64,000 nt of DNA from Frankia sp. R82 (GCF_023716925.1 NZ_JAMQQG010000009.1:1-64000); one strand, 5' to 3'; counted from the stretch's first letter, positions 9,401 through 31,776 are shown. Made by a program: numbers and translations. The notes: generated by a model not told the origin, from the letters alone.

Positions 9401-10403
9401 TGTCTCCGTTGATCTGCAGCGCGGCGAGCACGGCCGGCGTCGGCTCGTTCAGCGTGGCATCGGGCTCGCCCAGCACCTCGGCCGGAGCAAGCCGATCCTC
9501 TCCGATCACCGAACCCTCATCGAACCCGACGCCGAACACCTCCGTGGCCACCGCCCGGATCGCGCCCGTCGTGTCCTCGTCCAGCGAGCCGGATCCCAGC
9601 GTCGCCGAGGTGGCGACCGGGCAGACCGTACCCAGCGGCTGGCCGGGCCGGGAGACTCCGGTGACCGCGCCGAGCCGGCGCAGCAGCATCGCGACGTCGG
9701 TACCTTGCGCGCCGTCATAGGTGTGGAACTCGTCGAGTACCACGTAGGCGAGGCTGTTGTTCTCCCACAACGGCACGTCCTCCGGGCGCTGCAGCAGCAG
9801 GTCGAGCATCTTGTAGTTCGTGATCAGAATGTCCGGCACGGTGCGGCGGATCTCGCCCCGGTCCGTCATCACCCGCGGGTAGGACTGCGCCGGGCCTTCG
9901 CCGATGTAAAGGCCGGCGGTGACCTCGGCCAGCGCCGGATCCTGCAGGAAGGCATTGAGACGACCGGCCTGGTCGGTGGCGAGCGCGTTCATCGGATACA
10001 GCAGCAGCGCCTTCACCCCCGACTGGCCTTCGGCGCGAGCCCGTCGGCAGTGATCGAGGATCGGCATCAGAAACGCCTCGGTCTTGCCCGAGCCGGTACC
10101 CGTGGTCACCACGGTCGGCTTCGCTGTGCCACTCTTCGTCGACAGCCGTGCGAACGCCGTCGCCTGGTGCGCATATGGTGTCCACCCGTCCGGCGCCCAG
10201 GCGAGATGCTTCCGCCAGCCTTCGGCTGCCACCCGAAACGGTGTGCGGACCCGTAGGTAGGGGCCCCGGTAGATGCCGTACTCCGGATCGTCGAGGAACG
10301 AGGCGAGCGCCGCCTGCTCCGCCGAGTCGGCCAGTGCGAACGTCGTCGTCAGATACTGCGTCAACGTCTTTCGCAGCTCATCCGCCGCAACCGTCGGCCT
10401 CAT
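3465..10403 (-). CDS. Giant DEAD/DEAH helicase with DUF1998 region (DruE/DrmAB-like)
   Basis: A 2312-residue SF2 helicase of the COG1205/MrfA type. Walker A is TGTGSGKT at residues 101-108 and motif II is DEFH at 225-228; motif VI is YVQRAGRAGR in the C-terminal RecA lobe (about residue 1160). A DUF1998-type region includes SQPGGTGYL and the cysteine cluster CACVDAGRAGCPRCLLRY. Many further CxxC pairs (CRHCG, CPACG, CDAC, CDRC, CVDCGG) suggest several zinc sites. After DUF1998 there is an extension of about 600 residues with a DUF559/Vsr-like stretch (EVAVYLDGFRYHA, then RVFQLTWWDVEEW), possibly a nuclease. The size matches DruE of Druantia, or a fusion of DISARM DrmA (helicase) and DrmB (DUF1998). 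It overlaps both neighbours by 4 bp. Confidence 0.85.
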   Translation of the reverse strand: MRPTVAADELRKTLTQYLTTTFALADSAEQAALASFLDDPEYGIYRGPYLRVRTPFRVAAEGWRKHLAWAPDGWTPYAHQATAFARLSTKSGTAKPTVVTTGTGSGKTEAFLMPILDHCRRARAEGQSGVKALLLYPMNALATDQAGRLNAFLQDPALAEVTAGLYIGEGPAQSYPRVMTDRGEIRRTVPDILITNYKMLDLLLQRPEDVPLWENNSLAYVVLDEFHTYDGAQGTDVAMLLRRLGAVTGVSRPGQPLGTVCPVATSATLGSGSLDEDTTGAIRAVATEVFGVGFDEGSVIGEDRLAPAEVLGEPDATLNEPTPAVLAALQINGDNPASTRILAEAILGPGLRDADLRPAALGAQLRRHKLTRAVLNLLGGEPRTAQEALEGFAREDLRDWSVAVATQPAVAAAGLARFIALLSVARDPNDARRPLVTVETHLWARAVSRLLRAVGPQPAFAWEGEQRPAPVPTLDLTAATEPGGHSQAALTPGDGDGHPQEDPLGLDTSEHGAAWMVADSGQPMLPAVYCRHCGRSGWAALSPEREPQELESTAAKVYRASVGRDKRRVRALIRATEQEIGVPAGSPLMMLDVSGTKLHIFDPASDQAGIPVLCALDDSVGAEADRCPACGLEQGIRYLGAGLAALASVAVSQLFTGGELPDRTSQRTLLFNDSVQDAAHRAGFVAARAFTFSLRALLAAQLTDTMPVALNDLIADLIDASGDREILAAIVPPELHDVDDVDALLAGRERGRRPTWRLLGNRLGFATVLEFGLRSRNGRTLELTRTVAAEAALPQLTMARALARDTLLQAQVQALDHGDLTDARLDAYLRGLVERLRLRGGVNHEWLGRYLDEAGRRYRIWGGRPDGMPAFPRGLAAPAFLMTAPRPRTQFDVLSNTGNWYQDWTTRCLGLPRDQAADYLRVLLPRLADVGVLARRVIIRPTGNGRVGGRSRGRAGSTPAAGITVYGLQPGHLQIMRLDDDDAVEAGVRCDACSWTQTVPPARVAGWTGQPCQRYRCPGRLRPAPLPRAAGDYYRRLYRDGGPFRVVTAEHTGLLTREQRETVEHDFRRGTTYTDPNVLSCTPTLELGIDIGALSTVLLASLPTGPANYVQRAGRAGRASGNAFILTLLERGEREQYYLAEPRDMIAGEIAPPGTYLSAIELLRRQYTAHLIDLAARERLPGARPLPRVTGALFGPDGWLTEFVTAGLRAGPTQVDIFLALFGVPPADQYVSDAAAADLRAYARAGLSDAARTAERLWETRIAGLRDRLDAIDRARDALLRSDEEQRRDLRSLSAQRRALAKLAGELSRRSAHTTLVELGLLPNYALFDGSTILEATLTGEQDGPDGERLYSSEVREYARPVSQALTEIAPGNTYYVRGFAHRITGLDIGPRARPAWEFWRICPACGYVRTPRESALAAASNTGTTGAGSDASPAQVADDASPCDRCQHAGIGDAGARFAVLRPTRVTAVDRRDDVRIRDDLDDRDSRAYTTVTTVDIDPARIARSWRHSHATFGVDYARSAVIRTFNLGASRVDRTATDMFAGEPVSLNPFHVCVDCGGTSVDGPPTTHAGGGFGQPVLPDAFGNGTAGAERSESADELRGHEHHRLWCRHRRSPLAATHQSLLLANELHTEAVRILVPALTTSITTRRHSFAAALRLGIARQYSGSPDHLRLTAAVMPDATTGHSRQFLVLYDSQPGGTGYLHRLADPASFHAVLTTALTAIETCACVDAGRAGCPRCLLRYARGDEFAQIQRQEAIAVLRELLDGWAVTDSAPTDQMSLVQLVESELEARFLGGLRAWGTRPDTAGSVTTGADPAGDGRVAELRLSGPDGTITHWRMRLQHTVQGTRPDVHFTRLDGPPTEVAVYLDGFRYHASTEHNRLADDADKRARLRAHGLRVFQLTWWDVEEWRTREPGAPPTVRPPYQGLAQGVAHNYYRQVSDPPRPADDLDRHAWTNPVDQLLAYLADPNARLWRRRAEAALGGLLKTPGNARIRTDPPGVPAAVTAALRGLPLPASRTGGKISVVRARDDAGCPITVLIDTRTGGLPERVFSALVLIDDRPETVAADHGSAGVGLGLDEWGGDGEPGSADPAGNDSSHRRRWRSWLAWTNLIQFLDDGGGDALQLTVTGMDDVDPSLLAAADGGGLAEVRARQPLDSETSTWLGRPPLPERSTARLDAPTAVGERWREVLAYLLPDEPGLVDLVRGLVALDGPHGPEAVPRLALPTPGFELGDAAWQAELAWPAARVGVVLAPAGADDQEAAGRDHAYRSAGWDVRPPGAWTPTELARRIGTPNTPAADTMAATTDRGAR

Positions 10404-13400
10404 CGGCTGGGCTCTGGCTGCGCGGTAGCTGGCGTATCAGTCCCTCGGTCTACTACTGGATTCATCCAGCCGCTCGAGGTTTCCCGCCATCCCTCTTCTC
10501 GTGACGCCTCCAAACGTTTCGAGAAGACGGCATGTGCCGCTCGCATCTCATTCTCTCGGTCGGCTTTGTAAAAGGGAGGCGAATAGCCGGATGGCACCTT
10601 TGAATGTGGGGACTTAAAATGCGCTTGAAGATCGATCCAGTCTTGCTTTATCTGCCCATGGCCAAAGGAATTGAAGTTTGCGGAAATTTTCCGCCCATGA
10701 GCATCAAAAAACATTTCGGATTCATAGTCAAAAATTTGCGGAAATCGCGACTTGTAGATTGCCGCCAGCGCGTCGGCGGATATCCCGAGCCATACGGAGA
10801 CCAAGGCATCGAGTTCAACTAGTGCCGCCCTTCTTGCGTATTCCGATCGCAATGGAGTTAGTCGACTCCATTCCTGGTCGACACGCTCTAGGGGCGCCAT
10901 TTTTGGCCAATCTATTGCCCATTTATCAGAATTTTTCCAAACTGGATCGTAGACCTCATGCCATAGCTCTTCGTAGGCCTCGGTAAGGCAGTTCAGTCGA
11001 AGAGTCCGTAGTAGGAGAGACGTCATTAGAGGGTGTTCGGACTCGCCGGTCGGCATAACCCTTACGTCGGAGCTTCTTAGGTCTCCGCGCCCGCTTGCGC
11101 GCATCAAATAGTCGAGTGGAAGAGCACTCCAGAATCCGGCGGCCAGTACAAGCTGCTTCTTGGTTGGAAGTGTAAGTGAGTGGATTGAGTCCACGTGGGC
11201 CGGCCCTGGGGGCAGAATAGCGGCAAAAAGTGACCTTTCTCCGTTAGTTGCGATCCGGCGCCGCCAAGCTAGCCTGTAGTAGCTCGTGTACGGCCGTCCA
11301 GCCCAAATATCCTGCGTTTCAAAATACCGCTTTTCGGGGCAGTTTCTGGTGAAGTCACTCGCGGGAACAAAGTCGTTTGAGATGCGCGTCAAATCGGTTG
11401 ACTCGTCGTGAGATCCCAATGCCGGTGGCTGTTTGGCGATTGGAGTTCCAACGGCAATTTGAGGGCCGCGTAGAATTACATCTCTCCACTGTTCGCGCGC
11501 TCCGGTGTCTTTTCTAATTATTCCCCTCTTTTGCGCTCCGGTCTCATGGTATCCGGGGCTTATCATTGGAAGATCTCCGAGTCGGATCTTCCATGCGGCG
11601 AGGGCGGATATTGCAGATCGCTCTTCTTCTCCAACGAGGTAGAGAACGCGGGCAGAAAATATATCTCCTGCGGATTCTCCTGTTATAAGTTGCCATTCTC
11701 GGAGAACTTCGTGGTTGACAACGATAATTCGTTGTCGGTGTGGTCTTAAATCCCACGATCCATTGTGTTTGATACCTGGCGCAGGGCCATTGTTGTCATG
11801 AATGAGTGAGCCCGATAGTACTGAGGCATCGAAAATCCACGCTGCGTGCATAAAATTGATTGATTGTGGCGGTCCGTAAATGTGTAGGCCGAACTCCTGT
11901 GTGCGGCTCAGATCCGCAAAAGCCCAGTTTGCCACGTTAACAAAATGTGCGTGCGCGCGTAGGCGAGGAAATGCCTCTTTGCGTATTCTTTTTTCTCGGA
12001 CACCGTCAAGATGGGAGTCTGGATGGATCATTCCCACAGTCCCGGTCGGCTTGGCGTGTAGCCAGGCGCGGCACATAAATCCGCGATAGAGGTCTGGCTG
12101 TGTCCCTGCAAGAAGAGGATAATTGGTGACATCGCTAAGAAATCTATCAAATCCTGCATTTGCGGTAAGTTCATGAATGACCATTTTGTGCCATTTTGAA
12201 ATGCCAAAAATCCCTTCCCGGCGGACTTTCCACTCGTCGGTTTGGGTGCCGCGGGACAGCGCAAACCATGGGTCCGCCTCGGCGTATATTGAGCTTTCAT
12301 GCCAGTTCGGGCGAACCCATGGTGGGTTTCCTACCTGCAAGTCGAAACCTCCGTCGGCGAAAGCTGCGGAAAATTCGACTTCCCAGTGGAAAAAGCCGTG
12401 TTGGTTGGCAGCAGTCTCGACGGTGTCGAGCCAGGGGAAGAGTTCGGCCAGGCGGTGCCAGGCCTCCTGGCCGAGCCAGGTGGCTAGGTCTTCTTCGTGG
12501 GTTTCGAGCTCGTCGAGGGTGGAGAAGTGGGTGGCGAAGGTGTTCTGTCCGACGTCTGCGGTGCCGATCAGGGCGGTGGCGAAGCGGATCCAGTCGTCCA
12601 GGTTAGCAAGCGGGAAGGGACCACGGAGCCGTTCGGCGGGCCGGGCCGACTGGTTTCCTTGCCGCTTGCCGGCGGGGCTTGTGGTTCCGGCCTCGGGTGC
12701 GATGAGAGCGGCGTTTTCGATGGTGCCGTCGTCGCCGAACATGGAGGCCGTCTCCCAGGTGCGGGGCGAAACCGCCTCGAGTGCTGGGGCTGGAATTGGG
12801 GTCGGCTGGATGCGAGCAGGCGCGGCGGCATTTGTGACACGCAGGAATGTGCGTTGGTAGTCAGGGGCGGTGCCGTCCAGCAGGGAGGCGCTGTCGACGG
12901 GCCAGAACCAGAGGGCGCACCAGGTGTCCATCAGCTTTTTCAAGCGCCAGTAGGGCGTGCCAGGGGCCTCGAGGTCGGCGAGGATCTTGGCGCGGGGAAC
13001 GACGTCGCGGACCTCGGGCAGGTCCTCGGCGCCCCAGACGTCGATCTGGCGGCGGATCTCAGCCTCGGACAGGGCGAGGCGCTGCTGGACGAGGGTCCAC
13101 AAATACTCGGCGCGCCGGGTGAGCGCAGCGAGTATTGCCGCCTGGTTGGGCTTGCCCTTTGCGGCTTTCGTCGTGGGGGCCTTGGTGATGACGCGGCGCC
13201 AGGCGGCGAGTTTTTTGGCGTCGACCTCCGCCAGGTCCTTGGCTTCCTTTTCGGCGGCGACCGCGCCCCAGCCGGCAGCCGGGAGCAGGAAGTGGTGGAT
13301 GGCGTCCTTCGGTAGGTCGCCGTCGCGGAAGGGATGGTCGACGGGGGCGCTTGTTAGCCAGGAGCGGTCGGCGAGGGTGTCCTGGGTGTAGTAGCGGCGG

Positions 13401-15739
13401 CCGGCGCCGACGAGGGAGTTACCGCGGCGCAGGTGCAGGCCGAACCAGGGGGCCTGCAGGCCCGCATGCATGACGTTCAGCCAGAGGGAGACGTCAGCGA
13501 GTTCGATGGCGGTCGGGTTCAGGTCGACGCCGTAGCTGTTGTGCAGAGCGATGTACGCCTTGACCTTCTGCAGTTCGACGGCGTAGCGCTCCGGGTCGAG
13601 CGGCTCGTCGAGCGTACCGTCGGCGCGCTTCTCCTCTTGGCGGCGGCTCAGGTACTCGGCCGCGACCTGGTTGATGGCCTCGTTGAGGAACGCACCAGAG
13701 CCGAGGGCCGGCTCGCAGATCGTCCAGTCGAGCATCTCCCGGGCCTTGAAGTCCGGTCCGGCCTCCTTGATCCGGTATTGCAGCGCCAGCTGGACGGTGA
13801 CCTCGGTCAACGACTGGGGGGTGTAGTACGAGGCGGAGGTCTGTCGGTCGCGCCCGGATAGGCGATAGACGAACGAGCCGGCGGGGTAGCGGCGGCGCCG
13901 GTCGGTGCGGTGGCCGTCCTCGTCCACCTCGTGGACGAACACCTCGGGCGGGTACTCGTCGGCACGTGAGGTGGGAACGGTCCAACTGCCGTCCTTGGGA
14001 TCGCCGCCCTTGGCAACTTCGTAGAGCGCCTCACCAGCAATAAAGCCGGTGTAGGACATAAGGCCCTCGTAGACTGCGCCGAGCTGGGGGATGCCGAGCT
14101 GCCGGTAGGAGATGAACCCGCCTCGCCGCCGGGCACCACCGCGGGTCCGCCGACCACCCTTTGTGATCATTAGGCGGCGCAGAATCGCGTACAGCACGTC
14201 GTTGCGCAGGCGGGTGTCGAGGATCGCGGCGCGGCCGGCGGGCGCCGTCCCGTCCTCGTCGTCGTTCTCGGGCCAGGACAGGGACTGGCCGATGAGGGTG
14301 ATGGAGGAGGGTTCGAACAGGTCGGAGCGTAGTGCTTCGAACCGGATGCCCTCACGCTCGCTGGGCCGCCCGCCGGCGGCGCTGCCATCGCTGTCGGAGC
14401 CGCTGTCGACAGCGGTAGCGGCTGCGAGGGAGGAATTGGCAGGCTGGCTGGTGCCGTGGGCGTGGTAGCCCTCGTTGACGGCCTTGAAGAGCAAGTTCAG
14501 CGAGTCGAACAGGTGGGTGCCGGTGCGGGCCGCCGGGCTCGTTGGTGGGCGGCGGGCAGCCAGGTCACCAAGCCGCGCGAGGCTGTAGCCCTCGGCGTAT
14601 TCGGGATGGTCGACGGGGAGCATGCCGAGTTCGGGGCGGGCCTCGGCGTAGAGCAGCACGAGGATCCGGTAAAGGTAGCGAAGCGCCTCCCGGGTCAGTC
14701 GGTCGCCCAGGGATGTCAGGTCGTCGATCTGCTCCGGTCGCACACCGGCCTCGGCCAGGCGCGCTAGTACCTCGTTCGCGATCAGCTCGACCGATTCCTG
14801 CAGGCCGACACGCAGCTCCGCGGTGACGCCGACGGCCTGCTTCCGCGAGCCGGAGAGCAGGTCGGCGAGTGGTTCGGCACCGCCGGTTTCCGGTGGGCAC
14901 AAGGCATCCGCGCCGAACAGAGCGGCGATCACGTCGATCTCGCCGCCCGGTTTTGCGTCGTGGCGGCTGAACGCCGTATCCAGACTTGCGGCCAAGTAGC
15001 GGCCCTCACCCCAGGTCCGCCGGTCGGCGAGGATCACGACGCCGCCAGCGAGCAGCAGCACGTAGCGGGGCGGCTCCTCGACGACGAACAGGTGCGAGGC
15101 CAGCCGTATCCCGGAGGTGACCATCTCGCGCGGGCCAAGCACGACCGGGTGAAGCAGCCGGCCGGCGCCCGCCAGGTCGACCGCTGCGTCGGCCTCGGTG
15201 GCCCAGCCGCACTCCACTGCCCAGACCCCGTGGACGTCGGCGGCCAGCGGCACGGCAACCTCCACCCCGCCGTGGATCACCGTTCTGGTGTACCGGTGCG
15301 TCGGGAAACCGAGGGCACCGAGGACACCGTCGTGCAGCACCTGCAGCACCTCGGCCCGCTTGACGGCGTCGTCGTCCGGGTCGAGCGCGAGGAGATCGCT
15401 TTTGCGTTCGTAGTAGTACCGGCGAAACTCCCGCAACCCGGCGCGGGGCGTCACCGCGGTCGCGAAGCCGGCCGGTTCTGTGTCGAGCCTGGCGGCCGGC
15501 GAGTCGACCAGGATCGCTCCCAGTTCCGGCCCGATGGAACCCAGCAGGTTCGCGCCACCTGCGGGCAGGACAAGCGTCGGAGTCGTCTGCTCGTGCTCTG
15601 GTGACTCCAGGGCCTGTGCGGCCTTCTCCCGCTCGGCCCAGCGGGTCGAGATGTTCTTGCGGATCTCCCCGGGCAGGATTTCCTCGATGAAATACGGCGA
15701 GAAGTACTCACCGCGGTTGGTAAGAGCGTCGAAACTCAT
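10400..15739 (-). CDS. N6-adenine DNA methylase of the Eco57I/PglX/DrmMI type
   Basis: A 1779-residue class I methylase. The SAM-binding motif is ICEPALGSGAFLNEA at about residue 690 and the adenine-N6 catalytic motif is NPPW at residues 1138-1141; a YYTP motif precedes motif I as in type IIG and PglX enzymes. The N-terminal 600 residues are probably structural or regulatory, and the region after NPPW is probably the target-recognition part. It is about 50% longer than many PglX/DrmMI proteins. No PD-(D/E)xK nuclease was recognised, so it probably only modifies host DNA to mark self. It sits between the SNF2 helicase and the DUF1998 helicase with 4-bp overlaps on both sides. Its C-terminal third has markedly lower G+C than the rest (separate entry). 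Confidence 0.87.
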   Translation of the reverse strand: MSFDALTNRGEYFSPYFIEEILPGEIRKNISTRWAEREKAAQALESPEHEQTTPTLVLPAGGANLLGSIGPELGAILVDSPAARLDTEPAGFATAVTPRAGLREFRRYYYERKSDLLALDPDDDAVKRAEVLQVLHDGVLGALGFPTHRYTRTVIHGGVEVAVPLAADVHGVWAVECGWATEADAAVDLAGAGRLLHPVVLGPREMVTSGIRLASHLFVVEEPPRYVLLLAGGVVILADRRTWGEGRYLAASLDTAFSRHDAKPGGEIDVIAALFGADALCPPETGGAEPLADLLSGSRKQAVGVTAELRVGLQESVELIANEVLARLAEAGVRPEQIDDLTSLGDRLTREALRYLYRILVLLYAEARPELGMLPVDHPEYAEGYSLARLGDLAARRPPTSPAARTGTHLFDSLNLLFKAVNEGYHAHGTSQPANSSLAAATAVDSGSDSDGSAAGGRPSEREGIRFEALRSDLFEPSSITLIGQSLSWPENDDEDGTAPAGRAAILDTRLRNDVLYAILRRLMITKGGRRTRGGARRRGGFISYRQLGIPQLGAVYEGLMSYTGFIAGEALYEVAKGGDPKDGSWTVPTSRADEYPPEVFVHEVDEDGHRTDRRRRYPAGSFVYRLSGRDRQTSASYYTPQSLTEVTVQLALQYRIKEAGPDFKAREMLDWTICEPALGSGAFLNEAINQVAAEYLSRRQEEKRADGTLDEPLDPERYAVELQKVKAYIALHNSYGVDLNPTAIELADVSLWLNVMHAGLQAPWFGLHLRRGNSLVGAGRRYYTQDTLADRSWLTSAPVDHPFRDGDLPKDAIHHFLLPAAGWGAVAAEKEAKDLAEVDAKKLAAWRRVITKAPTTKAAKGKPNQAAILAALTRRAEYLWTLVQQRLALSEAEIRRQIDVWGAEDLPEVRDVVPRAKILADLEAPGTPYWRLKKLMDTWCALWFWPVDSASLLDGTAPDYQRTFLRVTNAAAPARIQPTPIPAPALEAVSPRTWETASMFGDDGTIENAALIAPEAGTTSPAGKRQGNQSARPAERLRGPFPLANLDDWIRFATALIGTADVGQNTFATHFSTLDELETHEEDLATWLGQEAWHRLAELFPWLDTVETAANQHGFFHWEVEFSAAFADGGFDLQVGNPPWVRPNWHESSIYAEADPWFALSRGTQTDEWKVRREGIFGISKWHKMVIHELTANAGFDRFLSDVTNYPLLAGTQPDLYRGFMCRAWLHAKPTGTVGMIHPDSHLDGVREKRIRKEAFPRLRAHAHFVNVANWAFADLSRTQEFGLHIYGPPQSINFMHAAWIFDASVLSGSLIHDNNGPAPGIKHNGSWDLRPHRQRIIVVNHEVLREWQLITGESAGDIFSARVLYLVGEEERSAISALAAWKIRLGDLPMISPGYHETGAQKRGIIRKDTGAREQWRDVILRGPQIAVGTPIAKQPPALGSHDESTDLTRISNDFVPASDFTRNCPEKRYFETQDIWAGRPYTSYYRLAWRRRIATNGERSLFAAILPPGPAHVDSIHSLTLPTKKQLVLAAGFWSALPLDYLMRASGRGDLRSSDVRVMPTGESEHPLMTSLLLRTLRLNCLTEAYEELWHEVYDPVWKNSDKWAIDWPKMAPLERVDQEWSRLTPLRSEYARRAALVELDALVSVWLGISADALAAIYKSRFPQIFDYESEMFFDAHGRKISANFNSFGHGQIKQDWIDLQAHFKSPHSKVPSGYSPPFYKADRENEMRAAHAVFSKRLEASREEGWRETSSGWMNPVVDRGTDTPATAQPEPSR
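10540..12325 (-). other. AT-rich segment of the methylase gene: presumed target-recognition domain
   Basis: Directly after the NPPW codons (12317-12328) the G+C content falls and stays low to about 10540, then recovers before the stop. By hand count the line at 10681-10740 is 38% G+C and the line at 11881-11940 is 55%, against roughly 70% in flanking genes. Third positions are often A or T here, unlike the rest of the operon. The segment encodes about 600 residues that would carry DNA target recognition. The frame is open throughout. The simplest reading is recombinational replacement of the specificity region from a lower-G+C donor. Confidence 0.7.
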
Positions 15740-18700
15740 CGGGCACCCCCCGGTGTCGGTGCGAGGACGGCGAGGACGCGCAGCATCGGCTCGCCGATGG
15801 TGTGCAGCCGCTCCACCAGCTCGCGCTGCCGGTTCTCGGTCTCGCGGACGAACCGCGCTCGTTTTGTCAGCGCCGCGACTGCCTGGTCGGTGCTGCCGGG
15901 CAGACTGCGGGTCACCCAGGTGTCCAGGCGGGTGAGGTAGGCGCGCAGCGGCTCGGCGATGTGCTCGTCCCAGTCGACCCGCTGGCGCTCAAGGTGGGCG
16001 CGGGCGGCTGCGACCGCCGCCGGTACGAGTGCCTGCAACGGCGCGAGGTCCAGGGCAGCCTGGATGTTCGTCATCCCCGGGCCGACGCCGGCCGCGGCCA
16101 GCGCCTCGTGCATCGGCCGGAAGCTGGCCGGGCCCGGCAGCCCGGCCAGCGCCATCCACTCGACGACGGTCGGCTGCCCGAACGCGTTGCAGTAGACGCC
16201 CTGAACCAGGAACGTCGGCTCGTCGACCGGGACGGTGAGCACCGGTGCCTGCTGCCGGTCTAGGCGCACCAGCACCTTGTCGACCAGCCAGTCAACGACC
16301 GGGTGAATGTCGGTCAGGAACCCCTTTTCCGGCCACAGCGTCTCCTTGCCCGCGCGGGATGCGGCCAGAGACGCCTCGGCTTCTTGCCGGTCCACCGTCA
16401 GCTGCAGCCGGAGCTGGCCCTGCTGGTCGCGCAGCCTGGACAGGTAGGAGCGGGGCAGGTCGGTGAGCCGGGCCTCCAGATCCTCCGGGGCCGTGAGTGC
16501 GAAATAGGTTGCCCGCTCCCGCCCGCCCGTCCCCCGGGCAGCGGCAAATCCGAGGGTCAGGCTGACTGTCGTATCCGCCCGTCCGTCGTAGACCTCGGAC
16601 AGCGCCTCGTCGACGAACGCTGCCACATCATGGAACAGTCGGGGTGGGCTGAACCGCTGCGGCGTAGGGTCCGCCGCGTGGGCGTCGAGGTCCGGATCGT
16701 CCTCCAGCCCAAGCGGATCGTCGGCCTCGACCGTCTCGTCCGCTTCGGCGGCATCGTCCGGCTCGTCGTCGAGTTCGAGTGCGTCCGCGCTGGCCGAAGC
16801 GGACGGTGCGCCGGACGTGCTGCGGCGGGCGGCGCTAGCCGCCAGCGACTGGTCGACGGTGCGGCCGGCGAGCAGGTCCTGCAGTAACCGGCGCTCCTCC
16901 CGGTCGGCCAGATACTCGCCGGTGACCGCCTCGGCGGTACCCAGGGTGCGATAGGCCTCCTCCTCGGCGGCGAGCAGTCGGGCGGCAACCGCCCGGTCGT
17001 CCAGCGACCGCGGGATCGCCGACGTGAGCAACAATGCCCCGAACCGGGGCTGCTGCCGCTGGCCGTAACGGTCGATCCGGCCGTTGCGCTGCTCGATGCG
17101 GATGAGGCTCCAGGGCACGTCGTAATGGATGAGCTGGTGGCAGGCCCGGTGCAGGTTCACGCCTTCGGAGGCCACGTCACTGGTGAACAACAACCGCACG
17201 GAGGCCTGGGTGAGGGAGAACTCCTCGACAATGCGCTGCTGATCGGCGACAGAAAGGTCGCTGTACAGAATGCGGGCGGCCCCGCGGTTTGCAGGATTGT
17301 TGAACGCCTGGTCGAACGAGGCGCCACGCTGCCCGCCGGGCTGCTTCGCCACCGGCAGGTCGAGCAGTGCGGGGACGACGCGGGCCAGCCAGCGCAGGGT
17401 GGTCAGTCGTTCGGAGAAGATGACGACCCGGGTGGGCGAGTCCGGCCCGACCCCGGCCGCGCGCAGCTGCGCCAGCAGGTGGCGCAGCTTGCTCGCATCG
17501 TCGTCGGACATGGCGGCGGCGAGTTCCTGTAGGCGTTCCAGCCGCGCCCGTTCTTCGGTCTGGTTCTCGCTGTTCGCCAGGGTGGACGAACGCAGCCGAT
17601 GGTCGATGGACTCCAACAGCGCATGATGCGAGGACAGAAACGCCTTCACTAGGGTGTACGGAAATAGCTGCTGCCTACCGCCACGGCGTGCGCCCGGGCT
17701 GCCCGGTGCCGTTGGAGCCGGGTCTGTCGCCTCACCGGGGGCCTGCACCCAGTGGGCGGTCAGTTCGGCAAAGACCCGTTCCTCCACCGGGCCGGCCGCA
17801 CAGATCAGCCGCTCCGAAGGGCCGCGGTCGGCCCAGACATCGGTGACCTTGTCTCGGACCTCCGAGGACATCTTCGTCCGGCGAATATAAAGGTGTTCGA
17901 TGTCCGAACGCTGGTAGGTCTTCAGGTTCGCGATCGCCACCGGGTCGAGCATCCGGATCAGCTCACCGAAGGAACGCTTGTTGCCGTTGTGCGGAGTCGC
18001 GCTGGCGAGGATCAGCGCGTCCGTCTGCGCGGCCAGCGTGCGGGCAAGTCGGTTGCGCAAGCTGTTCGCGCCGATCAGGTTGTGTGACTCGTCGATGACG
18101 ACCGCGTCCCAGCGGATGTCCTCCAGATGGTGGCCGTACATGCCAACGTTCTTGAGCGTGTCGACGGAAACAATCACCCGTTTAAAATAGGTGAACGGAT
18201 TGCGCCCTGCTGGGATCTCCCGCTGGATCCGCTCGATGCCGACCGCATCCAGGCGCACTAGGGGGATGGAGAACCGGGTCCACAGCTCATGCTGGAACTG
18301 CTCGAGTACGTGCTGTGGGGTGACCACGAGCAGCTTCTCGCCCCGGCCGCGCCGAATCAGCTCGCCGAGCAGCAGCCCGATCTCCAGGGTCTTGCCCAGC
18401 CCCACGACGTCGGCCACCAGCACCCGCGGTTCCAGCCCGCTCAGCGCCATGGCGGCTGGGCGAAGCTGATAGTCCAGAGAGTCAAGCAGGAACGTGTCGG
18501 TCAGAGCCAGGCGCCGTTCGGAGCGGGGCAGTGGTGTACGCCGCAGCACTGCCTCCAGGTACAGCCGGCTGCGGCGGAACTGCGCGGACCCGTCGTGGAC
18601 GAGTTCGGTCTCCTCGGGTAGCAGCGCGTGCACCTCGTCCAGCCCGGTGAAGAACGAGGCATCCAGGCCCCGGACGAACTCCGATGCCCCGGTGACCTTC

Positions 18701-18813
18701 ACCAGGTAGCCGTCCCGGTCCGTCGGCACGACACTGCGGACCAGCCATTCCTCGTCCCGGATGAGTACGCGTGCGCCAGGGGCGTAGGGCGTCGGGGACG
18801 GCGCTGTGACCAC
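15736..18813 (-). CDS. SNF2-family helicase/translocase (DrmD-like)
   Basis: A 1025-residue SF2 protein of the RapA/SNF2 type. Walker A is VVGLGKT (about residue 140), motif II is DESH in VVIDESHNL, motif III is ILASATPHNG, and the C-terminal lobe has LFTSDVASEGVNL and motif VI QRNGRIDRYGQ. A long acidic linker (about residues 690-720) separates the helicase from the C-terminal part. A SNF2 helicase next to an N6-adenine methylase and a DUF1998 helicase is the class 1 DISARM signature (DrmD, DrmMI, DrmA/B). The GTG start at 18813 gives MVTAPSPTPYAPG; an AAAGAGA stretch lies upstream. Its stop overlaps the methylase ATG by 4 bp. Confidence 0.87.
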   Translation of the reverse strand: MVTAPSPTPYAPGARVLIRDEEWLVRSVVPTDRDGYLVKVTGASEFVRGLDASFFTGLDEVHALLPEETELVHDGSAQFRRSRLYLEAVLRRTPLPRSERRLALTDTFLLDSLDYQLRPAAMALSGLEPRVLVADVVGLGKTLEIGLLLGELIRRGRGEKLLVVTPQHVLEQFQHELWTRFSIPLVRLDAVGIERIQREIPAGRNPFTYFKRVIVSVDTLKNVGMYGHHLEDIRWDAVVIDESHNLIGANSLRNRLARTLAAQTDALILASATPHNGNKRSFGELIRMLDPVAIANLKTYQRSDIEHLYIRRTKMSSEVRDKVTDVWADRGPSERLICAAGPVEERVFAELTAHWVQAPGEATDPAPTAPGSPGARRGGRQQLFPYTLVKAFLSSHHALLESIDHRLRSSTLANSENQTEERARLERLQELAAAMSDDDASKLRHLLAQLRAAGVGPDSPTRVVIFSERLTTLRWLARVVPALLDLPVAKQPGGQRGASFDQAFNNPANRGAARILYSDLSVADQQRIVEEFSLTQASVRLLFTSDVASEGVNLHRACHQLIHYDVPWSLIRIEQRNGRIDRYGQRQQPRFGALLLTSAIPRSLDDRAVAARLLAAEEEAYRTLGTAEAVTGEYLADREERRLLQDLLAGRTVDQSLAASAARRSTSGAPSASASADALELDDEPDDAAEADETVEADDPLGLEDDPDLDAHAADPTPQRFSPPRLFHDVAAFVDEALSEVYDGRADTTVSLTLGFAAARGTGGRERATYFALTAPEDLEARLTDLPRSYLSRLRDQQGQLRLQLTVDRQEAEASLAASRAGKETLWPEKGFLTDIHPVVDWLVDKVLVRLDRQQAPVLTVPVDEPTFLVQGVYCNAFGQPTVVEWMALAGLPGPASFRPMHEALAAAGVGPGMTNIQAALDLAPLQALVPAAVAAARAHLERQRVDWDEHIAEPLRAYLTRLDTWVTRSLPGSTDQAVAALTKRARFVRETENRQRELVERLHTIGEPMLRVLAVLAPTPGGAR

Positions 18814-25268: not shown

Positions 25269-25580
25269 TCAACGCTCTGGCGTGGCGAGAATCTTGAAAA
25301 GCATGGTGTTGACGTTGGTGAGTGTCTGCGTGTCGACCCGGCTGACGCAGGTCTCGAGGGAGGTCTTCAGCACGAAGGTGACCAGGCCCAGGACCGCCCA
25401 CCTGCCGTCGCCGAGATCGACACAGAAGCCCTCGTCGGTGGCCTGCCTGGTAACCAGCGCGGCCAGCACGGTCGGTTCCTGGGGGATCTCGTTGTAGACC
25501 GTGGAGCTGAGGACCAGGACCTCCCGGGGGGCCGCCCGGGTGCGGGTGCTCCAGATCTCGCCGCGGCGCGGTGGTCTCAC
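25269..25580 (-). CDS. PemK/MazF-like toxin of a type II toxin-antitoxin pair
   Basis: A 103-residue protein from a GTG at 25580 that overlaps the antitoxin stop by 4 bp (GTGA). It begins MRPPRRGEIWSTRTR, the usual N-terminal strand of PemK/MazF/CcdB-fold toxins, and ends with a helix (TLTNVNTMLFKILATPER). Family members are sequence-specific mRNA or tRNA endoribonucleases, some acting on gyrase. The size is normal. The order antitoxin then toxin with a 4-bp overlap is standard. The RGEIW start and the partner gene carry the call; the middle is divergent. Confidence 0.72.
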   Translation of the reverse strand: MRPPRRGEIWSTRTRAAPREVLVLSSTVYNEIPQEPTVLAALVTRQATDEGFCVDLGDGRWAVLGLVTFVLKTSLETCVSRVDTQTLTNVNTMLFKILATPER

Positions 25581-25846
25581 GCGGCGGGGTTCGCCACGTT
25601 GGGGAGCCCGGCATCGGCGAGCGCCTGCTGGTTGGCCTCCCCGAAGGCCAGTGCCTCCTCGATGACGGCGGGATTCGCCGAGATCCAGGCGGCGTGCGCG
25701 GCACACCGGCGCCGCATGTCCTCGGCGTCGAGAAGCCCTTCGACCCAGGTGTTCATCGAGACGCCGTCGGCCTGCGCGTACCGCTTGACCGCCTCGTAGT
25801 CGTCATCGGAGAGCCGAAGCGTGAGCGTCCGTGGCATGCAGATCAT
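25577..25846 (-). CDS. Ribbon-helix-helix antitoxin
   Basis: An 89-residue protein: MICMPRTLTLRLSDDDYEAV with the RHH strand TLTLRL, then GVSMNTWVEGLLDAEDM. The C-terminal 40 residues, ending ALADAGLPNVANPAA, would wrap and neutralise the toxin. The start is ATG 25846 or ATG 25837; both lie within the inverted-repeat operator, so leaderless or very short-leader translation is possible. It is followed by the PemK-like toxin with a 4-bp overlap. RHH antitoxins of this kind normally repress their own operon. Confidence 0.75.
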   Translation of the reverse strand: MICMPRTLTLRLSDDDYEAVKRYAQADGVSMNTWVEGLLDAEDMRRRCAAHAAWISANPAVIEEALAFGEANQQALADAGLPNVANPAA

Positions 25847-25874: not shown

Positions 25875-27056
25875 TCAGTCGTCGTCGGTGAGGAGGTCCA
25901 GGCGGCCGAGGGCCTGGGGGCCGGCGGCGTGGGCGTGGGTGCGCAGGTCGTGATGGGTGGGTGGGGGGACCTCGAGGGCGGTCGCGATGCGTTCGGCCTG
26001 GTGGAGCAGGCCGGTGCGGGTGATGCCGGGGCGGCGGGTGAGGGCCAGGGCACGGTCGAGGGCGGCGGTGCGGCGGGTGGCGGCGTCCTCGCACCAGAGC
26101 TGGGCCACGTGGTTCTTCGACAGTTCGTACGAGCCGAGGCGGTACAGCTTCAGCGCGGCCTCGCCGAAACCCGACGGTGGCAGGAGGATCCGCCACACTC
26201 CGGTGGACGTCTGCCGGACGGTCCCGGTGCCGCCGGCATAGCTGGCGAGCCAGGCCGTCCACAGGGTGCGCGGGTCGGCGGTGTCCTCGGCGTCGATGCG
26301 CTGGCGGACCGAGTCGACGTGGCGGCAGACCTCGGCGAGAAACGGGTCGCGTTCGTCGGAGACGTTCGTGTAGGCGAACAGTCCGTGCTCGGCGGTTTCG
26401 ATGAAGTAGCAGGGCAGGAATGCCTGGGTGGTGCCGAGTTCCTGGATGGGGCCCAGCGCCGCGGGGACGTTGAACTCGGCCCGGTCGGGGCGGGCGGCAA
26501 GCTGCTCGACGGATGTGGGACGCAGCGGAGTGGGCGTGTAGACCGGATGGAAACGGGTCCGGCCGGGTGCGCGGTCCGCGGGTATCTCGGCGTTGGGCAG
26601 GATAGCGATTTTTCCGTCGTAGTAGGCGCGGGGAAACGGCCAGCCGGTGAACTGTTCGAACATCAGCCGCTGACGGCTTTCCTTCGCCACATAGCGGACG
26701 CCGGCCCGCCACGACTGGCGGCCAAGCGACGTCAGCGCCAGACGTCCGGCCGGGCCGCCGGGTGCGGCGGTGATGTGGCCGATGGTGGTGAGGAAGTCCA
26801 GGCAGCGCTGGACGAGGGCGATGGGCAGGGAGAAGAACGCGGCGATCTCGTCCGCGGAGGTCAGCCGGCCCTCGGCGAGGGCGCGCAGCAGGAAGCGATC
26901 GAGCACCTCGAAAGCCTGTGGATCGTGCACGGACGCGCTGATCTCGATCTGCCACAGCGGCCACAGCACGGGAAACAGCCGCAGTGGGCGCACCCCGGGC
27001 ACGGCGGCGGCGTCCTCCAGGGCCCGGCGGGCCGGGTAGAGCACCGGTGTGGCCAT
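25875..27056 (-). CDS. Unrecognised winged-helix protein, third gene of helicase operon
   Basis: A 393-residue protein not assigned to a named family. Residues about 45-115 look like a winged helix: VLDRFLLRALAEGRLTSADE, then FFSLPIALVQRCLDFLTTIG and a wing with GRLALTSLG. The rest is mixed alpha/beta with motifs such as FPRAYYDGKIAILPN, QAFLPCYFIETAEHG and TGVWRILLPPSGFGEA, and a helical C-terminus. No nuclease or ATPase motif is evident. Its ATG overlaps the stop of the SF1 helicase by 1 bp (TGATG), so it is translationally coupled to it. It may be a sensor, adaptor or DNA-binding subunit of the three-gene system. Confidence 0.7.
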   Translation of the reverse strand: MATPVLYPARRALEDAAAVPGVRPLRLFPVLWPLWQIEISASVHDPQAFEVLDRFLLRALAEGRLTSADEIAAFFSLPIALVQRCLDFLTTIGHITAAPGGPAGRLALTSLGRQSWRAGVRYVAKESRQRLMFEQFTGWPFPRAYYDGKIAILPNAEIPADRAPGRTRFHPVYTPTPLRPTSVEQLAARPDRAEFNVPAALGPIQELGTTQAFLPCYFIETAEHGLFAYTNVSDERDPFLAEVCRHVDSVRQRIDAEDTADPRTLWTAWLASYAGGTGTVRQTSTGVWRILLPPSGFGEAALKLYRLGSYELSKNHVAQLWCEDAATRRTAALDRALALTRRPGITRTGLLHQAERIATALEVPPPTHHDLRTHAHAAGPQALGRLDLLTDDD

Positions 27057-30000
27057 CAGAAGCCTCCGTCCGCACCGGCACCGCCGTCGCCGCGGCCCCG
27101 GCCGTCGCCGTGGCTGCGGCCGTCGCCGTGGCTGCGGCCGTCGCCGTCGGGCAGCAGACGGGCGATCTCGCGCGACGGGCGCAGGTCACCGTAGGCGCGC
27201 AGATGGTCGACGAGGCCGCGGGCCATCGTGGCGAAGGGGGCGTCGGTGGCCGCACACAGCGTCGAGGTGTCGCCGACGAGAACGAGCTGCTGCTTCGCCC
27301 GGGTGATGGCGACGTTGAGCCGGCGCAGTTCGGAGAGGAACCCGACGGCTCCACGGTCGTTGCTGCGGGTGAAACCGTAGACGATCAGGTCGCGTTCGCC
27401 GCCCTGGAACGAGTCGACGGTGCCGATGTTCTCGCCGACCCGCGCCGGATCGCCGAGCCGGCGGGCGAGCGCCGCCTCGATCCGCGCCGCCTGTGCCCGG
27501 TAGGGGACGATCACGGCCCAGTCGGCGAAGTAGCGGGCGGCGTGGGCGACGTGGGCGGCGATCAGCTCGGCCTCCAGCTCGTTGACGTAGCCGCGCTGCT
27601 GCCACGCCTCGGTGGCACGCAGTTCCAGCTCGGCCCGTTCGGCGGCGGGACGGTCCGAGGTGTCGATCATCCCGAGGGGGCTGCGGAAGATCGGGTCGCC
27701 GCCGCCGCCGTCATGGGACGTGCGCAGTTGGCCGTGGTAGAAGGCGCCGGAGACGAACCGGGCGAGCACCTCGGGCATCCGGCGTTGCAGGGTGAGCTCG
27801 ACCCGCTGCTCGTCGCCGACGCGGGGGAACAGCCGCTCGAAGCCGCTGGCACGCAGCAGTTCGCCGATCTCCCGGGCGTCGTCGCCGGCGGCGAGCGTCT
27901 CGGACCAGCGGCGGACGTCCTCGTCCAGGAACGGCGGTAGCTGGTAGTGGTCGCCGACGAGGATCGAACGGCGGGCCCGCACCATCGGGACCAGCATGTT
28001 CGGGGTAGAGATCTGCCCGGCCTCGTCGATGATCGCCACGTCGAAGACGATGTCGGTCAGCAGCGGGCTGCTCGCCGTCCCGACGCAGGTGGCGGCGACG
28101 ACCTGCGCGTAGCGGACGAGTTCGTGGCGCAGTTCGGTCTCGGCGTCGCCGATCCGGGAGCGCCATTCGGCCAGCAGCGTCGCCCGGCCCCGCACCGTCA
28201 CGATCGCCTGTTCCGCCCAGGCGTGCAAGGACGCCCAGCCGGCGAGGTCATCCGGAGCCGGAAGATCATCTGTGTTGGTGCTCGCGAGGAGACCGCCGCC
28301 GGACGTGGGGCCGCCGGACGTGGAGTCGGCGGTGCTGTCGTGTGCGGTGAGCAGGGGGAGCAGGGCGCCGAGGACGACCCGACCGGCCTCGGCCAGGTGG
28401 TGGTGGCATTCGGCGATGGTCGCGGCCAGTTCGTCGCGTTCGGTGGTGAGGGCGGCGCAGTGCGGGTCGGCGGCGGCGAGGGCGGCGGTCTGGGCCCGGA
28501 GCTGCTCGCGGGTCTCGGCGAGGCGGGCGAGGTCGGTGTCGGCGGCGGCGCGGGCGGCCCGTGCCCGGTCGAGGCGGGACCGCAACCGGTTCAGCCGCCA
28601 GCCGCGCCACCACCCCAGCACGCCCACGGTGCCTGTGGTGCCTGTGGTGCTGTGGCCGTCGGCAGCGGTGGTGCCCTGGCGAGCTGCCACGGCGGCGTGC
28701 AGTGCGGCGAGTCGTTCGTCCAGCGCGGGTATCGCGTCGAGGATGCGGTCGGCGTCGGTGGTGGCCCGGCGGCGGGCGGCGGCGAGCTCGGGGGACAGCG
28801 CGAGGACGGCTTCGTCCACCGTGCGTTCGACCGTGGCCAGCCGGGCCCGCGTCTGCTCGGCGAGGGTGCGCTGCTCGGCGAGATGGTCCAGCCACTGGCG
28901 CAGCACCGGTTCGGCGCGGCCGAAGGAGGCCATCAGCTCCGGCAGGCGGGTGTCGGCGAGGACGTCCCGGCGGAACGCCTCGAGCAGGCTGTCGACGGTG
29001 CGGGTCCGGGCGGCAGCCGTCATCGAGGCCTCGCTGCCGATCCGCACGGCGTGCACGTCGGCGGGCAGGCCCGCGAGCACGTTGTCGACGGCCCGGTTGG
29101 TGTGCGAGGTGACCAGGACCGTCTCGCCGCGGGCCACGCATTCCAGGACGATCTCGGTGATGGTCCGGGTCTTGCCGGTGCCCGGCGGGCCGAGGACCAG
29201 CAGCAGGTCCGGCACGGTCAGCGCCCGGCGGAACGCGGTGAGCTGGTTGTCGTCCAGCGGGCCACGGGCGCGCGCCGGCGCGGCCGGCTGGTAGGGCAGG
29301 AACGCGCCGTCGACGAGGTTCGCGAGCAGGTTCGGGTTCGCCGCCAGGCCGTCGGCGAGGGTGTCCACCGCCTGCTGTTGGATCCGGTAGACCCGGTCGC
29401 TCGGGAGCACCCGCAGCGCACCCTGCGCGGGCAGCGCCCGGAAGTCCACGGCCTGCTCGAACCGGACGACGACCTCCCGGCCGTCCACCCGGTCGACCCG
29501 GCCGCGCAGCTCCGGGTGGTCCTCGACCTGCACCTGCGCACCCGCGACGATCCCCTGGGGGCGGGCCAGGTGGAACGCGTAGACGCCGCGGCCGGAGAAC
29601 CGCTGCTCGCGGGCCGCCTCCCGGCGCGCGTACGGCACCGGTGGGGCCAGCTCCTGGCGGGCGACCTCGATGTCCCGGCTCGCCTCGATGACCTGTGCGA
29701 CCAGATCGAGGTAGCGCTGGTGTTGCGGCGCGAGCCGCCCGCCAGGACCGGTCCCCGGCCCGCTCGCGGCGTCCGCTGTCCCTTCCCCGGCGCTGCCCGC
29801 CGACCCGGCCGCGGTCAGCCCCGCCCAGGCCTGGCGCAGCTGCGCCCACTGGGACGACCAGGGCTGGTCGAACGTGCCGCGTCCGCGCGGCAGGTCCTGC
29901 AGACGTTCGAAGATCCGCCATCCGGACGGGCAGGTCAGCACCAGCGCGGCGGCGGTCAGCCGGTCCTCGTCGTGGAACGTCCGGCGGCGGGCATGGCCCA

Positions 30001-30244
30001 GGCGGTATCCGTCCTGGTACTGGGTCGGGTAGAGCGTCGCGACGTACCGGCTGGCGTAGACGATCAGCCGGCCGCGGTCCGGGTCGTTGCGGTCGGGTTC
30101 CAGCCGGGCGGGCAGCATCCCGCGGGCCGACAGCTCGGTGAGTTCCTCGAGGAACCGGGTCGGCTGCCCGTCGAGCGCCTCGATGGCCTTCGCCGTCGGA
30201 ATCACGGCCAGCGGCCAGCGCACCGTGACCGGCAGCGTCGTCAT
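27056..30244 (-). CDS. SF1 helicase of the UPF1/DNA2-like COG1112 type
   Basis: A 1062-residue protein. The N-terminal 350 residues carry an OB/beta-barrel-like part (VEDHPELRGRVDRVDGREV) as in IGHMBP2/UPF1 relatives. Walker A is [12 protein letters not shown] (about residue 353), motif Ia follows in TSHTNRAVDNVL, motif II is DEAGQ in VAIIDEAGQIS, then motif III LVGDHYQLPP and motif VI LNVAITRAKQQLVLVGD; all look intact. A long predicted coiled-coil insertion of about 200 residues lies between motifs Ia and II. The C-terminus has 18-bp repeats (GRSHGDGRSHGDGRG). It is the middle gene of a coupled operon: 4-bp overlap with the nuclease-pseudokinase gene upstream and 1 bp with the winged-helix gene downstream. 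COG1112 helicases occur in Mokosh defence. Confidence 0.83.
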   Translation of the reverse strand: MTTLPVTVRWPLAVIPTAKAIEALDGQPTRFLEELTELSARGMLPARLEPDRNDPDRGRLIVYASRYVATLYPTQYQDGYRLGHARRRTFHDEDRLTAAALVLTCPSGWRIFERLQDLPRGRGTFDQPWSSQWAQLRQAWAGLTAAGSAGSAGEGTADAASGPGTGPGGRLAPQHQRYLDLVAQVIEASRDIEVARQELAPPVPYARREAAREQRFSGRGVYAFHLARPQGIVAGAQVQVEDHPELRGRVDRVDGREVVVRFEQAVDFRALPAQGALRVLPSDRVYRIQQQAVDTLADGLAANPNLLANLVDGAFLPYQPAAPARARGPLDDNQLTAFRRALTVPDLLLVLGPPGTGKTRTITEIVLECVARGETVLVTSHTNRAVDNVLAGLPADVHAVRIGSEASMTAAARTRTVDSLLEAFRRDVLADTRLPELMASFGRAEPVLRQWLDHLAEQRTLAEQTRARLATVERTVDEAVLALSPELAAARRRATTDADRILDAIPALDERLAALHAAVAARQGTTAADGHSTTGTTGTVGVLGWWRGWRLNRLRSRLDRARAARAAADTDLARLAETREQLRAQTAALAAADPHCAALTTERDELAATIAECHHHLAEAGRVVLGALLPLLTAHDSTADSTSGGPTSGGGLLASTNTDDLPAPDDLAGWASLHAWAEQAIVTVRGRATLLAEWRSRIGDAETELRHELVRYAQVVAATCVGTASSPLLTDIVFDVAIIDEAGQISTPNMLVPMVRARRSILVGDHYQLPPFLDEDVRRWSETLAAGDDAREIGELLRASGFERLFPRVGDEQRVELTLQRRMPEVLARFVSGAFYHGQLRTSHDGGGGDPIFRSPLGMIDTSDRPAAERAELELRATEAWQQRGYVNELEAELIAAHVAHAARYFADWAVIVPYRAQAARIEAALARRLGDPARVGENIGTVDSFQGGERDLIVYGFTRSNDRGAVGFLSELRRLNVAITRAKQQLVLVGDTSTLCAATDAPFATMARGLVDHLRAYGDLRPSREIARLLPDGDGRSHGDGRSHGDGRGRGDGGAGADGGF

Positions 30245-31776
30245 GAGTGTCCTGTCTCTGCGGCCGGGTCGTGTTCGCCGAGCGACAGGGGGCGCCGGGC
30301 GGCCCGCAATGCGTCGGCGAGCTCGTCGAGCCGGGGCCAGTGGCGCGGGTCGGCGGCGGCGGCCCGGGAAAGCACCTCGTCGAGCTGTTCCGGACCGCCG
30401 ATCCTGGACGGACGGCTGCCAAGCACGCCGCGCACCAGCGCCGCGACCTGCCGGACGTCGGTGGCCGCCGCGTCCGTTTCCCCGCGTTCCTCCATCCCGC
30501 CTGCGCCGCCCATCCCGCCTGCGCCAGCGGTGCCGTCCGGCGCGAGCCTCGCGCTCATCCCGACCAGGCCCAGGTCACGCAGCATCGGCGTGGTGCGGCC
30601 TCCGCTCGGGCGCTGGCGGGGGCCCCTGCTGCGCGGCTGGTCACGGCCTCCGCGACGGGCATGGGCCCCCTCGGCGGCAGGGAACACGATGTCGTCGGGG
30701 GTCAGTCGGCGGTGGGCCTGTCCGGCGCGGTGCAGCACCGCCAGCGTCTCGCACAGCGCCGCCGCGTCTGCCAGCACCCGCGCCGCGACGATCCGATCCG
30801 GACCAGTCGGGCTCGCCAGAACGGCGGACGCGGCTGCGGCCTCGCCGTGGACCTCACGCCAGGTCCGTCCCACCGGCGCGGACATGACCAGAACCGCATG
30901 GTCGCCGCGATGCCGAGGGGCGATCAGTTCGGGTAGACCCGCGGTGCCGCGCAGCGCCGTGAGCAGCTGGGCCTGGGTCCGTAGGGCGTCGTACCAGCTC
31001 GTGGCGTCCGGCGTGCGGTGGCGGACCCACAGATGGCGCAGGCGCACCAGGCGGTCGCCGGGTTCAAGTTCCCGCGCCGTCACGTCGCGCAGCACCCAGG
31101 ACCTGTCCGGGGCCGTCCACTGCGTGACGGGCTCGTGCAGCAGGTGGACGACACCGCCGACCCGCAGTTCGAGGCCGCCGTGCCAGGGCGTGGCATCCGG
31201 ACTCGCCGCGTCAAGAACGGTCTCGTCGGCCCGGATGCGCAGCGCCGACCCCGACGCCGCCTCGTGCGCGCGTGTCGACGACGAGCCGTAGTAGATCTCG
31301 CGCAGGCCGGAGCACTCCGGCTGGGACAGTAGCGTGCGCAGCCGGGTCTCGTCCCACAGCACGATGGGAACGCCGGTGAGCTGCGTCTGTTCCGCCCGCC
31401 ACCGTTCGAAACGCTGTGTCCGCGGGCCGTCCATGGTCACCGGAATGCACAGCGTCCATTCCTCGATCCGGTACCTCTGTTCCGACGCCGCTGTCCAGGC
31501 CCGGGCGAAGGATTTCCGGATGCTGGCGAGCTGGTCGTCCTTCACGCCGTCGATGAAGTACTTCACCTGCCAGATCCGCCCCTGGTCGGTGAGATCACCG
31601 GTGTAGACGTCGATGCCCCAGTCGCCGGGCGCCGGCTCGATGTTGTGCGCCGGACCCTGCAGCTGATCAACCAGCGACGTGACCATCTGCTCGAAGTCAT
31701 GCCGCCCGCCGGCGTCGTTGGACCGCAGCCGGTGCGCGTGGAAGTTGATGGGCGGCGACCCGACCGGAAGATCCAC
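30241..31776 (-). CDS. Mrr-like nuclease fused to a pseudokinase
   Basis: A 511-residue protein from GTG 31776, with AGGGAG 6 nt upstream. Residues 20-75 form a PD-(D/E)xK core of the Mrr type: APGDWGIDVYTG with the acidic residue D56, then WQVKYF with Q70 and K72. The region to about 165 completes this fold. Residues about 200-500 resemble a protein kinase that has lost catalysis: the HRDLKPxN loop reads HRRLTPDDI (Asp to Arg, Lys to Thr, Asn to Asp), the expected beta3 lysine is not evident, and DFG reads DLG. Glycine-rich spacer repeats (GAGGMGGAGGMEE) lie before the last helices. First gene of the operon with the SF1 helicase (ATGA overlap). Likely role: DNA or RNA cleavage gated by nucleotide or partner binding to the pseudokinase. 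Confidence 0.75.
   Translation of the reverse strand: MDLPVGSPPINFHAHRLRSNDAGGRHDFEQMVTSLVDQLQGPAHNIEPAPGDWGIDVYTGDLTDQGRIWQVKYFIDGVKDDQLASIRKSFARAWTAASEQRYRIEEWTLCIPVTMDGPRTQRFERWRAEQTQLTGVPIVLWDETRLRTLLSQPECSGLREIYYGSSSTRAHEAASGSALRIRADETVLDAASPDATPWHGGLELRVGGVVHLLHEPVTQWTAPDRSWVLRDVTARELEPGDRLVRLRHLWVRHRTPDATSWYDALRTQAQLLTALRGTAGLPELIAPRHRGDHAVLVMSAPVGRTWREVHGEAAAASAVLASPTGPDRIVAARVLADAAALCETLAVLHRAGQAHRRLTPDDIVFPAAEGAHARRGGRDQPRSRGPRQRPSGGRTTPMLRDLGLVGMSARLAPDGTAGAGGMGGAGGMEERGETDAAATDVRQVAALVRGVLGSRPSRIGGPEQLDEVLSRAAAADPRHWPRLDELADALRAARRPLSLGEHDPAAETGHS

Follow-up and report, generated by a model that had tools for sequence, protein, structure and literature searches.

Of the described anti-phage systems, that most closely related to the locus considered here is type I Mokosh, in which a single protein, MkoA, carries a Ser/Thr kinase with the catalytic VAIK, HRD and DFG motifs N-terminal to a COG1112/UPF1-type SF1 helicase, and the adjacent gene codes for MkoB, which combines a winged-helix N-terminus with a PLD nuclease. 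The canonical actinobacterial representatives recovered in the course of this study (loci L087 and L109) follow the same plan: the kinase fused to the helicase of each MkoA keeps intact HRDIKPGN/HRDVKPEN and AVK motifs, and each MkoB carries PLDc_2 further along. In type II Mokosh one protein, MkoC, unites an N-terminal RNA helicase with a PLD nuclease effector (PMC10013915). No published study of the mechanism of Mokosh was found in the literature searched. Exchangeable effector domains are a feature of both the LmuA-based Lamassu systems, where the partner is the SMC-like LmuB, and the Avs2 systems, where the sensor is a STAND ATPase. Two further precedents are relevant: in Hachiman, HamAB comprises a helicase sensor that restrains an effector nuclease until damaged DNA is met (PMC12278908), and in the vWA-MoxR-VMAP ternary systems of actinobacterial conflict most kinase domains are catalytically disrupted and have been proposed to act non-enzymatically (PMC7159879). 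Within the literature searched, mostly without subscription papers and bioRxiv, no description was found of a system combining an effector-pseudokinase fusion with an SF1 helicase and an MkoB-like protein.

The window, i.e. the whole stretch of 64,000 nucleotides of Frankia DNA analysed, was described in a preliminary account as containing three minus-strand genes joined by ATGA and TGATG junctions. The open reading frames and both junctions were confirmed by reading the sequence, and the resultant features, with the evidence for each in brackets, are as follows.

30241-31776, minus strand: g1, effector-pseudokinase fusion, 511 aa, GTG start (open reading frame, homologue starts, first gene of the conserved triplet)
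31282-31776, minus strand: Mrr/LmuA-like PD-(D/E)xK nuclease domain of g1, residues 1-165 (PADLOC, Pfam, motif, omega)
30286-31218, minus strand: pseudokinase domain of g1, residues 187-497 (PADLOC, family profile, VIA, motifs, hhalign boundary)
27056-30244, minus strand: g2, SF1 UPF1/DNA2-type helicase corresponding to the helicase half of MkoA, 1062 aa (PADLOC, Pfam, PDB, tree)
29168-29191, minus strand: Walker A of g2, GPPGTGKT (sequence; invariant in 12 homologues)
28016-28027, minus strand: Walker B of g2, DEAG(Q) (sequence; invariant in 12 homologues)
25875-27056, minus strand: g3, MkoB-like winged-helix protein without a PLD domain, 393 aa (PADLOC MkoB, hhalign, family alignments)
26697-26924, minus strand: winged-helix domain of g3, residues 45-120 (AlphaFold2 model and VIA fold match)
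25878-26594, minus strand: C-terminal region of g3, residues 155-393 (family conservation; no Pfam family and no PLD match)

The g1/g2 junction (ACTCATGACG) is a 4-base ATGA overlap and the g2/g3 junction (TTCTGATGGCC) a TGATG with a 1-base overlap, the equivalent junctions across the family loci being mostly overlapping also. The frame of g1 is open upstream to 32349, and since its homologues align from the residue corresponding to the GTG at 31776, this start was accepted. Conservation of the genes as a set, on which the preliminary description had made its reading depend, was found at all 21 testable loci with a full-length g3, each holding the order g1-g2-g3; a locus was deemed testable when g3 was matched over its whole length and sufficient contig was available (L126, for example, ends inside g2). 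These loci, several of them closely related, comprise 13 from Frankiaceae including the window, two of the Actinoplanes type and six from Streptomycetaceae, with frameshifts breaking g2 in L035 and g3 in L037. Given the same order at 20 loci other than the window, the triplet is not a product of chance, and chance open reading frames were ruled out as its explanation.

PADLOC matches to the MkoA kinase (g1 residues 240-367; 6.4e-5), the MkoA helicase (g2; 1.1e-107, profile positions 523-1081 of 1112) and the N-terminus of MkoB (g3; 3.6e-11) fall on three consecutive genes, and thereby indicate a Mokosh-related operon in which MkoA is split and MkoB shortened. No Mokosh profile of PADLOC 2.0.0 matched these proteins over full length, MkoA being covered over about half and MkoB over about a quarter, so that loci of this kind may be overlooked or mislabelled by current profiles. 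The prior suggestion of a Mokosh-like or new system is upheld as to homology. Strict membership of type I fails: kinase and helicase are coded for by separate genes at all family loci, unlike the fused MkoA of L087 and L109, the catalytic residues of the kinase are incomplete, and g3 lacks the PLD nuclease. Judged by homology, the triplet is derived from the same stock as type I Mokosh, of which it is not a strict member, and has an exchangeable effector. The likeness to type II is confined to an SF1 helicase coupled to a nuclease, there being three genes and no PLD here in place of the single MkoC.

Pfam searches with g2 returned AAA_11 (3e-38) and AAA_12 (9e-35), the closest solved structures in the PDB were SMUBP-2, DNA2 and UPF1 (5e-62), and the helicase motifs, between which an insert is located, proved invariant across 12 family members, in keeping with the intact UPF1/DNA2-type SF1 enzyme originally described. 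The profile comparison with Mokosh recommended at that time likewise points to g2 being the helicase half of MkoA with the kinase split off.

The third gene had been left as an unrecognised winged-helix protein and extra subunit. Its winged helix was confirmed by an AlphaFold2 model (mean pLDDT 85.8) in which residues 45-120 match a MarR/Csa3-like fold (VIA Z 12.0, rmsd 1.8, 74 residues), but its status as a novel subunit was not: the hhalign alignment to canonical MkoB (three proteins; probability 96.9, E 1.9e-10) covers residues 17-155 and goes no further. On this profile evidence the N-terminal 140 residues of g3 are homologous to MkoB, the protein being a PLD-less relative, and an unknown extra subunit was therefore rejected. 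Residues 155-393 are conserved in the family and occupy the place of the PLD nuclease in canonical MkoB. Pfam searches detected no PLD family in g3 and no match of any kind in this C-terminal region, nor was a fold recognised there by a fold search that barely covered it. A degenerate PLD protein found no support in family matches or in profile alignment past residue 155, its C-terminal fold having been barely tested.

The preliminary claim of a nuclease fused to a degenerate kinase was substantiated on both counts. In the AlphaFold2 model of g1 (mean pLDDT 74.8), residues 194-497 adopt a protein-kinase fold (VIA Z 17.7, rmsd 3.5, 233 residues aligned), and the family profile matched PknB-type kinases (1.5e-11). 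The protein from the window has HRR for HRD, lacks the VAIK Lys and retains DLG; in its relatives the VAIK Lys is also absent and the DFG Asp usually kept. Replacement of the HRD Asp extends to all g1 catalytic loops read, the other variants including HRA, HQR, HLA, HRC and HGA.

With regard to the nuclease, for which an Mrr type in place of PLD had been proposed, PADLOC profiles matched residues 6-168 to LmuA (5e-35) and, more weakly, to the N-terminus of Avs2 (2.6e-8). Pfam Mrr_cat was matched weakly by six of 14 g1 family members (best E 0.0085), the protein from the window itself giving no Pfam match at E 1, and all 12 nuclease-type loci with g2 and g3 contain the motif GD.GIDV...WQxKYF. 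In the window this reads GD.GIDV...WQVKYF, with a predicted catalytic Lys near residue 72. The relationship to Lamassu is one of domain-level homology only. No LmuB match was among those listed by PADLOC for the three proteins, and both here and in comparison with Avs2 it is the sensor partner that differs, an SF1 helicase plus a winged-helix protein standing in place of LmuB or the STAND ATPase. Searches of PDB sequences with the nuclease profile yielded chance matches only, and a PHROGs search assigned no family to g1 or g3. The domain has an omega of 0.20 against its nearest relative.

The nuclease is not, however, the only domain carried by this pseudokinase, a finding beyond the reach of the preliminary description because it is visible only with other genomes. 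Over the 21 loci the effector is a nuclease in 12 (all from Frankiaceae, the window among them), a TIR domain in one, DUF4145 in two and a nucleoside phosphorylase in six. The TIR type was found in Pseudofrankia BMG5.36 (L051/L059; TIR_2, 6.5e-31) and the phosphorylase type in L108 (PNP_UDP_1, PF01048, 5e-32), to which L127-L131 were added by sequence similarity. For the DUF4145 type, Paractinoplanes deccanensis (L061) gave a direct match (9e-7), and Actinoplanes KI2 (L060) was so classed through PADLOC matches to PDC-M16A and a type I REase N-terminus common to it and L061. When nuclease-type g1 proteins were compared with that of L060, hhalign aligned them only from residue 187 onward; as these alignments indicate, the segment of g1 ahead of about residue 187 is exchanged among relatives with the helicase and winged-helix partner constant. 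In the phosphorylase domain two motifs of MTA/SAH nucleosidases, ME and RGISD, are retained. L051 has a TIR that aligns with those of the TLR/IL-1R type; neither a catalytic Glu in this TIR, when inspected by eye, nor an obvious HEPN-type motif arginine in the DUF4145-like domain of L060 was evident, so these two domains may serve for binding rather than catalysis.

In a tree of the helicases, the 20 from split systems grouped together as a single clade to the exclusion of canonical MkoA (100/100). The phosphorylase and DUF4145 types each constituted a single clade, and the TIR type was sister to the group containing the window (100/100). Nuclease-type helicases were not monophyletic: they made up two groups, separated by the DUF4145 and TIR types. 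The well-supported branches force at least two changes of nuclease label, a result compatible with the nuclease being either ancestral or gained twice.

The gene for g1 is also found without its partners. A g1 homologue was present in 18 of 35 genomes of the same order as the window, and Frankia relatives share a conserved chromosomal site, which follows a RecQ-like gene, frequently has conservon-type genes next to it and holds the full triplet (L041), g1 alone or the pseudokinase alone; the loci concerned are L041, L044 and L046-L050, with kinase-only copies in L031 (G000:C32, in the same genome as the window) and L052-L054. All pairs tested gave an omega well below 1 (about 0.1-0.33), even with the nuclease site lost. 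As orphan g1 is under purifying selection in the absence of helicase and g3, it may have some function apart from them, and the variation at this place may have arisen by loss in steps, some role being kept, or in the opposite order. The nuclease Lys is retained in 12 of 12 nuclease loci with g2 and g3 and altered in four of eight g1 copies without them (L043, L045, L048 and L050); constraint on the nuclease site thus seems tied to the presence of the helicase, a pattern that is suggestive only, related strains not being independent. Ahead of the g1 start codon there is a leader, GGAAGAGCGATCTCG(A/C), that is almost invariant in L041, L044, L046-L049 and L052-L054, and variants such as GGAGGAACGATCC occur upstream of other g1 genes.

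The triplet system is rare. Searches of 346 genomes of the class with g3 profiles gave matches in 16, of which three were partial. In a sample of 346 Streptomycetaceae, seven had a full-length g3, and in one of 396 genomes taken from across the phylum, namely that of the window, a full-length match was obtained. Within the named collection g3 was recovered from Frankia, Parafrankia, Pseudofrankia, Actinoplanes and Paractinoplanes. Searching the phylum with the MkoB profile returned mostly PLD proteins and generic winged helices. A mobile-element origin was also considered and dismissed, tblastn of g2 against plasmids (E<=1e-60), tblastn of g3 against phages and a scan of viral contigs for g3 having produced no copy.

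As to siting among defence genes, this held for some Frankia loci and not for several from Streptomyces, whose neighbours are ordinary genes with none obviously concerned with defence. DISARM genes (DrmD and DrmMI) lie directly downstream of g3 in L038 and, judged by near-identical gene starts, in L036 and L039, and type I-E Cas3 and Cas8e are located about 4 kb downstream in L034. None of g1, g2 and g3 itself matches a Drm family, the DISARM genes being neighbours only, and at other loci. Further along the same strand the window codes for a TIR-NB-ARC-TPR protein of the FxSxx type and a Ser/Thr kinase, and also for an SNF2 protein resembling DrmD and a restriction-methylation protein of type IIG-like character.

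These data are consistent with the triplet being a Mokosh-derived abortive-infection anti-phage system, the reading considered reasonably probable, in which a helicase-winged-helix sensor would be connected by a pseudokinase adaptor to an interchangeable effector. In such a system g2 and g3 would together sense nucleic acid, the winged helix binding and the helicase translocating on or remodelling infection-specific (phage) molecules; the pseudokinase would dock on this sensor and pass a conformational signal, but no phosphate, to the fused effector, which would then destroy either DNA (nuclease type) or a nucleotide pool (phosphorylase type), with the cell killed or arrested and the phage stopped. 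Relative to canonical type I Mokosh, where the effector would be the PLD domain of MkoB, the killing function would have shifted to the kinase-like subunit and become exchangeable. Weighing against this reading are the ordinary surroundings of several Streptomyces loci, the lack of copies in the plasmids, phages and viral contigs searched, the doubtful activity of the TIR and DUF4145-like domains, and the persistence of orphan g1. The closest mechanistic analogy is Hachiman, which differs in its helicase and effector and has no pseudokinase; the vWA-MoxR-VMAP ternary systems share inactive kinases but are built on vWA/MoxR, without an SF1 helicase and MkoB. The constant helicase and MkoB-like parts, set against a changing fused domain, provide a natural series separating sensor from effector, in that the part held constant probably senses and the part swapped probably kills, and the family is a candidate case, in bacteria, of a pseudokinase serving as an immune adaptor. 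A wider proposition, advanced more tentatively and as slightly short of an even prospect, is that helicase and MkoB-like sensor form a general immune platform that could license any pseudokinase-fused effector cassette without phosphotransfer.

An Mrr-like nuclease accompanied by a helicase and a winged helix of DNA-binding type, with DISARM neighbours, might suggest direct restriction of a type IV or DISARM-like kind, in which the nuclease, driven by helicase and winged helix, cuts phage DNA and the host survives, the pseudokinase acting as a scaffold and nothing more. In close relatives, nevertheless, pseudokinase and helicase are the same but a TIR or a nucleoside phosphorylase takes the place of the nuclease, and as neither domain can restrict DNA directly this explanation appears unlikely. 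More doubtful still is an ordinary type I Mokosh variant with an unchanged mechanism, its genes having undergone fission without functional consequence: such a variant would show the homology to MkoA and MkoB that g1, g2 and g3 have, but an active fused kinase and a PLD nuclease were looked for and not found, and the split-system helicases form a separate clade.

Least probable is that the operon serves filamentous actinobacteria in housekeeping or in stress/DNA repair and has no part in phage defence. The loci set among ordinary genes, and the orphan g1 maintained by purifying selection at a conserved place downstream of a RecQ-like gene, are what such an operon would predict, but its patchy presence (the seven of 346 Streptomycetaceae and one of 396 genomes across the phylum given above), the exchange of immune-type effector domains, the homology to Mokosh, LmuA and Avs2, and the DISARM and CRISPR neighbours all favour the abortive-infection system.

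A number of further gene arrangements were recorded. Directly downstream of g3 in the window are two minus-strand genes, named by eye, for a ribbon-helix-helix antitoxin-like protein (25577-25837) and a MazF-like toxin (25269-25580), a pair also located downstream of g3 in L035 and L037 and absent from the other loci searched. Four consecutive overlapping genes at 1201-18813 (minus strand), possibly a separate DISARM/RM-type system, code for a UvrD-like helicase, a 2312-aa protein, the 1779-aa type IIG-like restriction-methylation protein and the DrmD-like SNF2 helicase. Another split Mokosh-like variant was encountered in a Streptomyces-type genome (L088, G195:C2, 1929-10626), its parts being a separate kinase with YQD for HRD plus a zinc ribbon, a helicase, an MkoB-N protein in which PLD was not detected, and a PDC-M26A AAA protein. 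At the phosphorylase-type loci L108 (1-7695, minus strand) and L131 (12708-19901, plus strand), the next gene is a large one (coding for a VWA protein in L108 and of similar size in L131), after which come an open reading frame of 1280-1562 aa and a gene with the common start VIVLDLRSGAH, these neighbours representing a possible linked second system.
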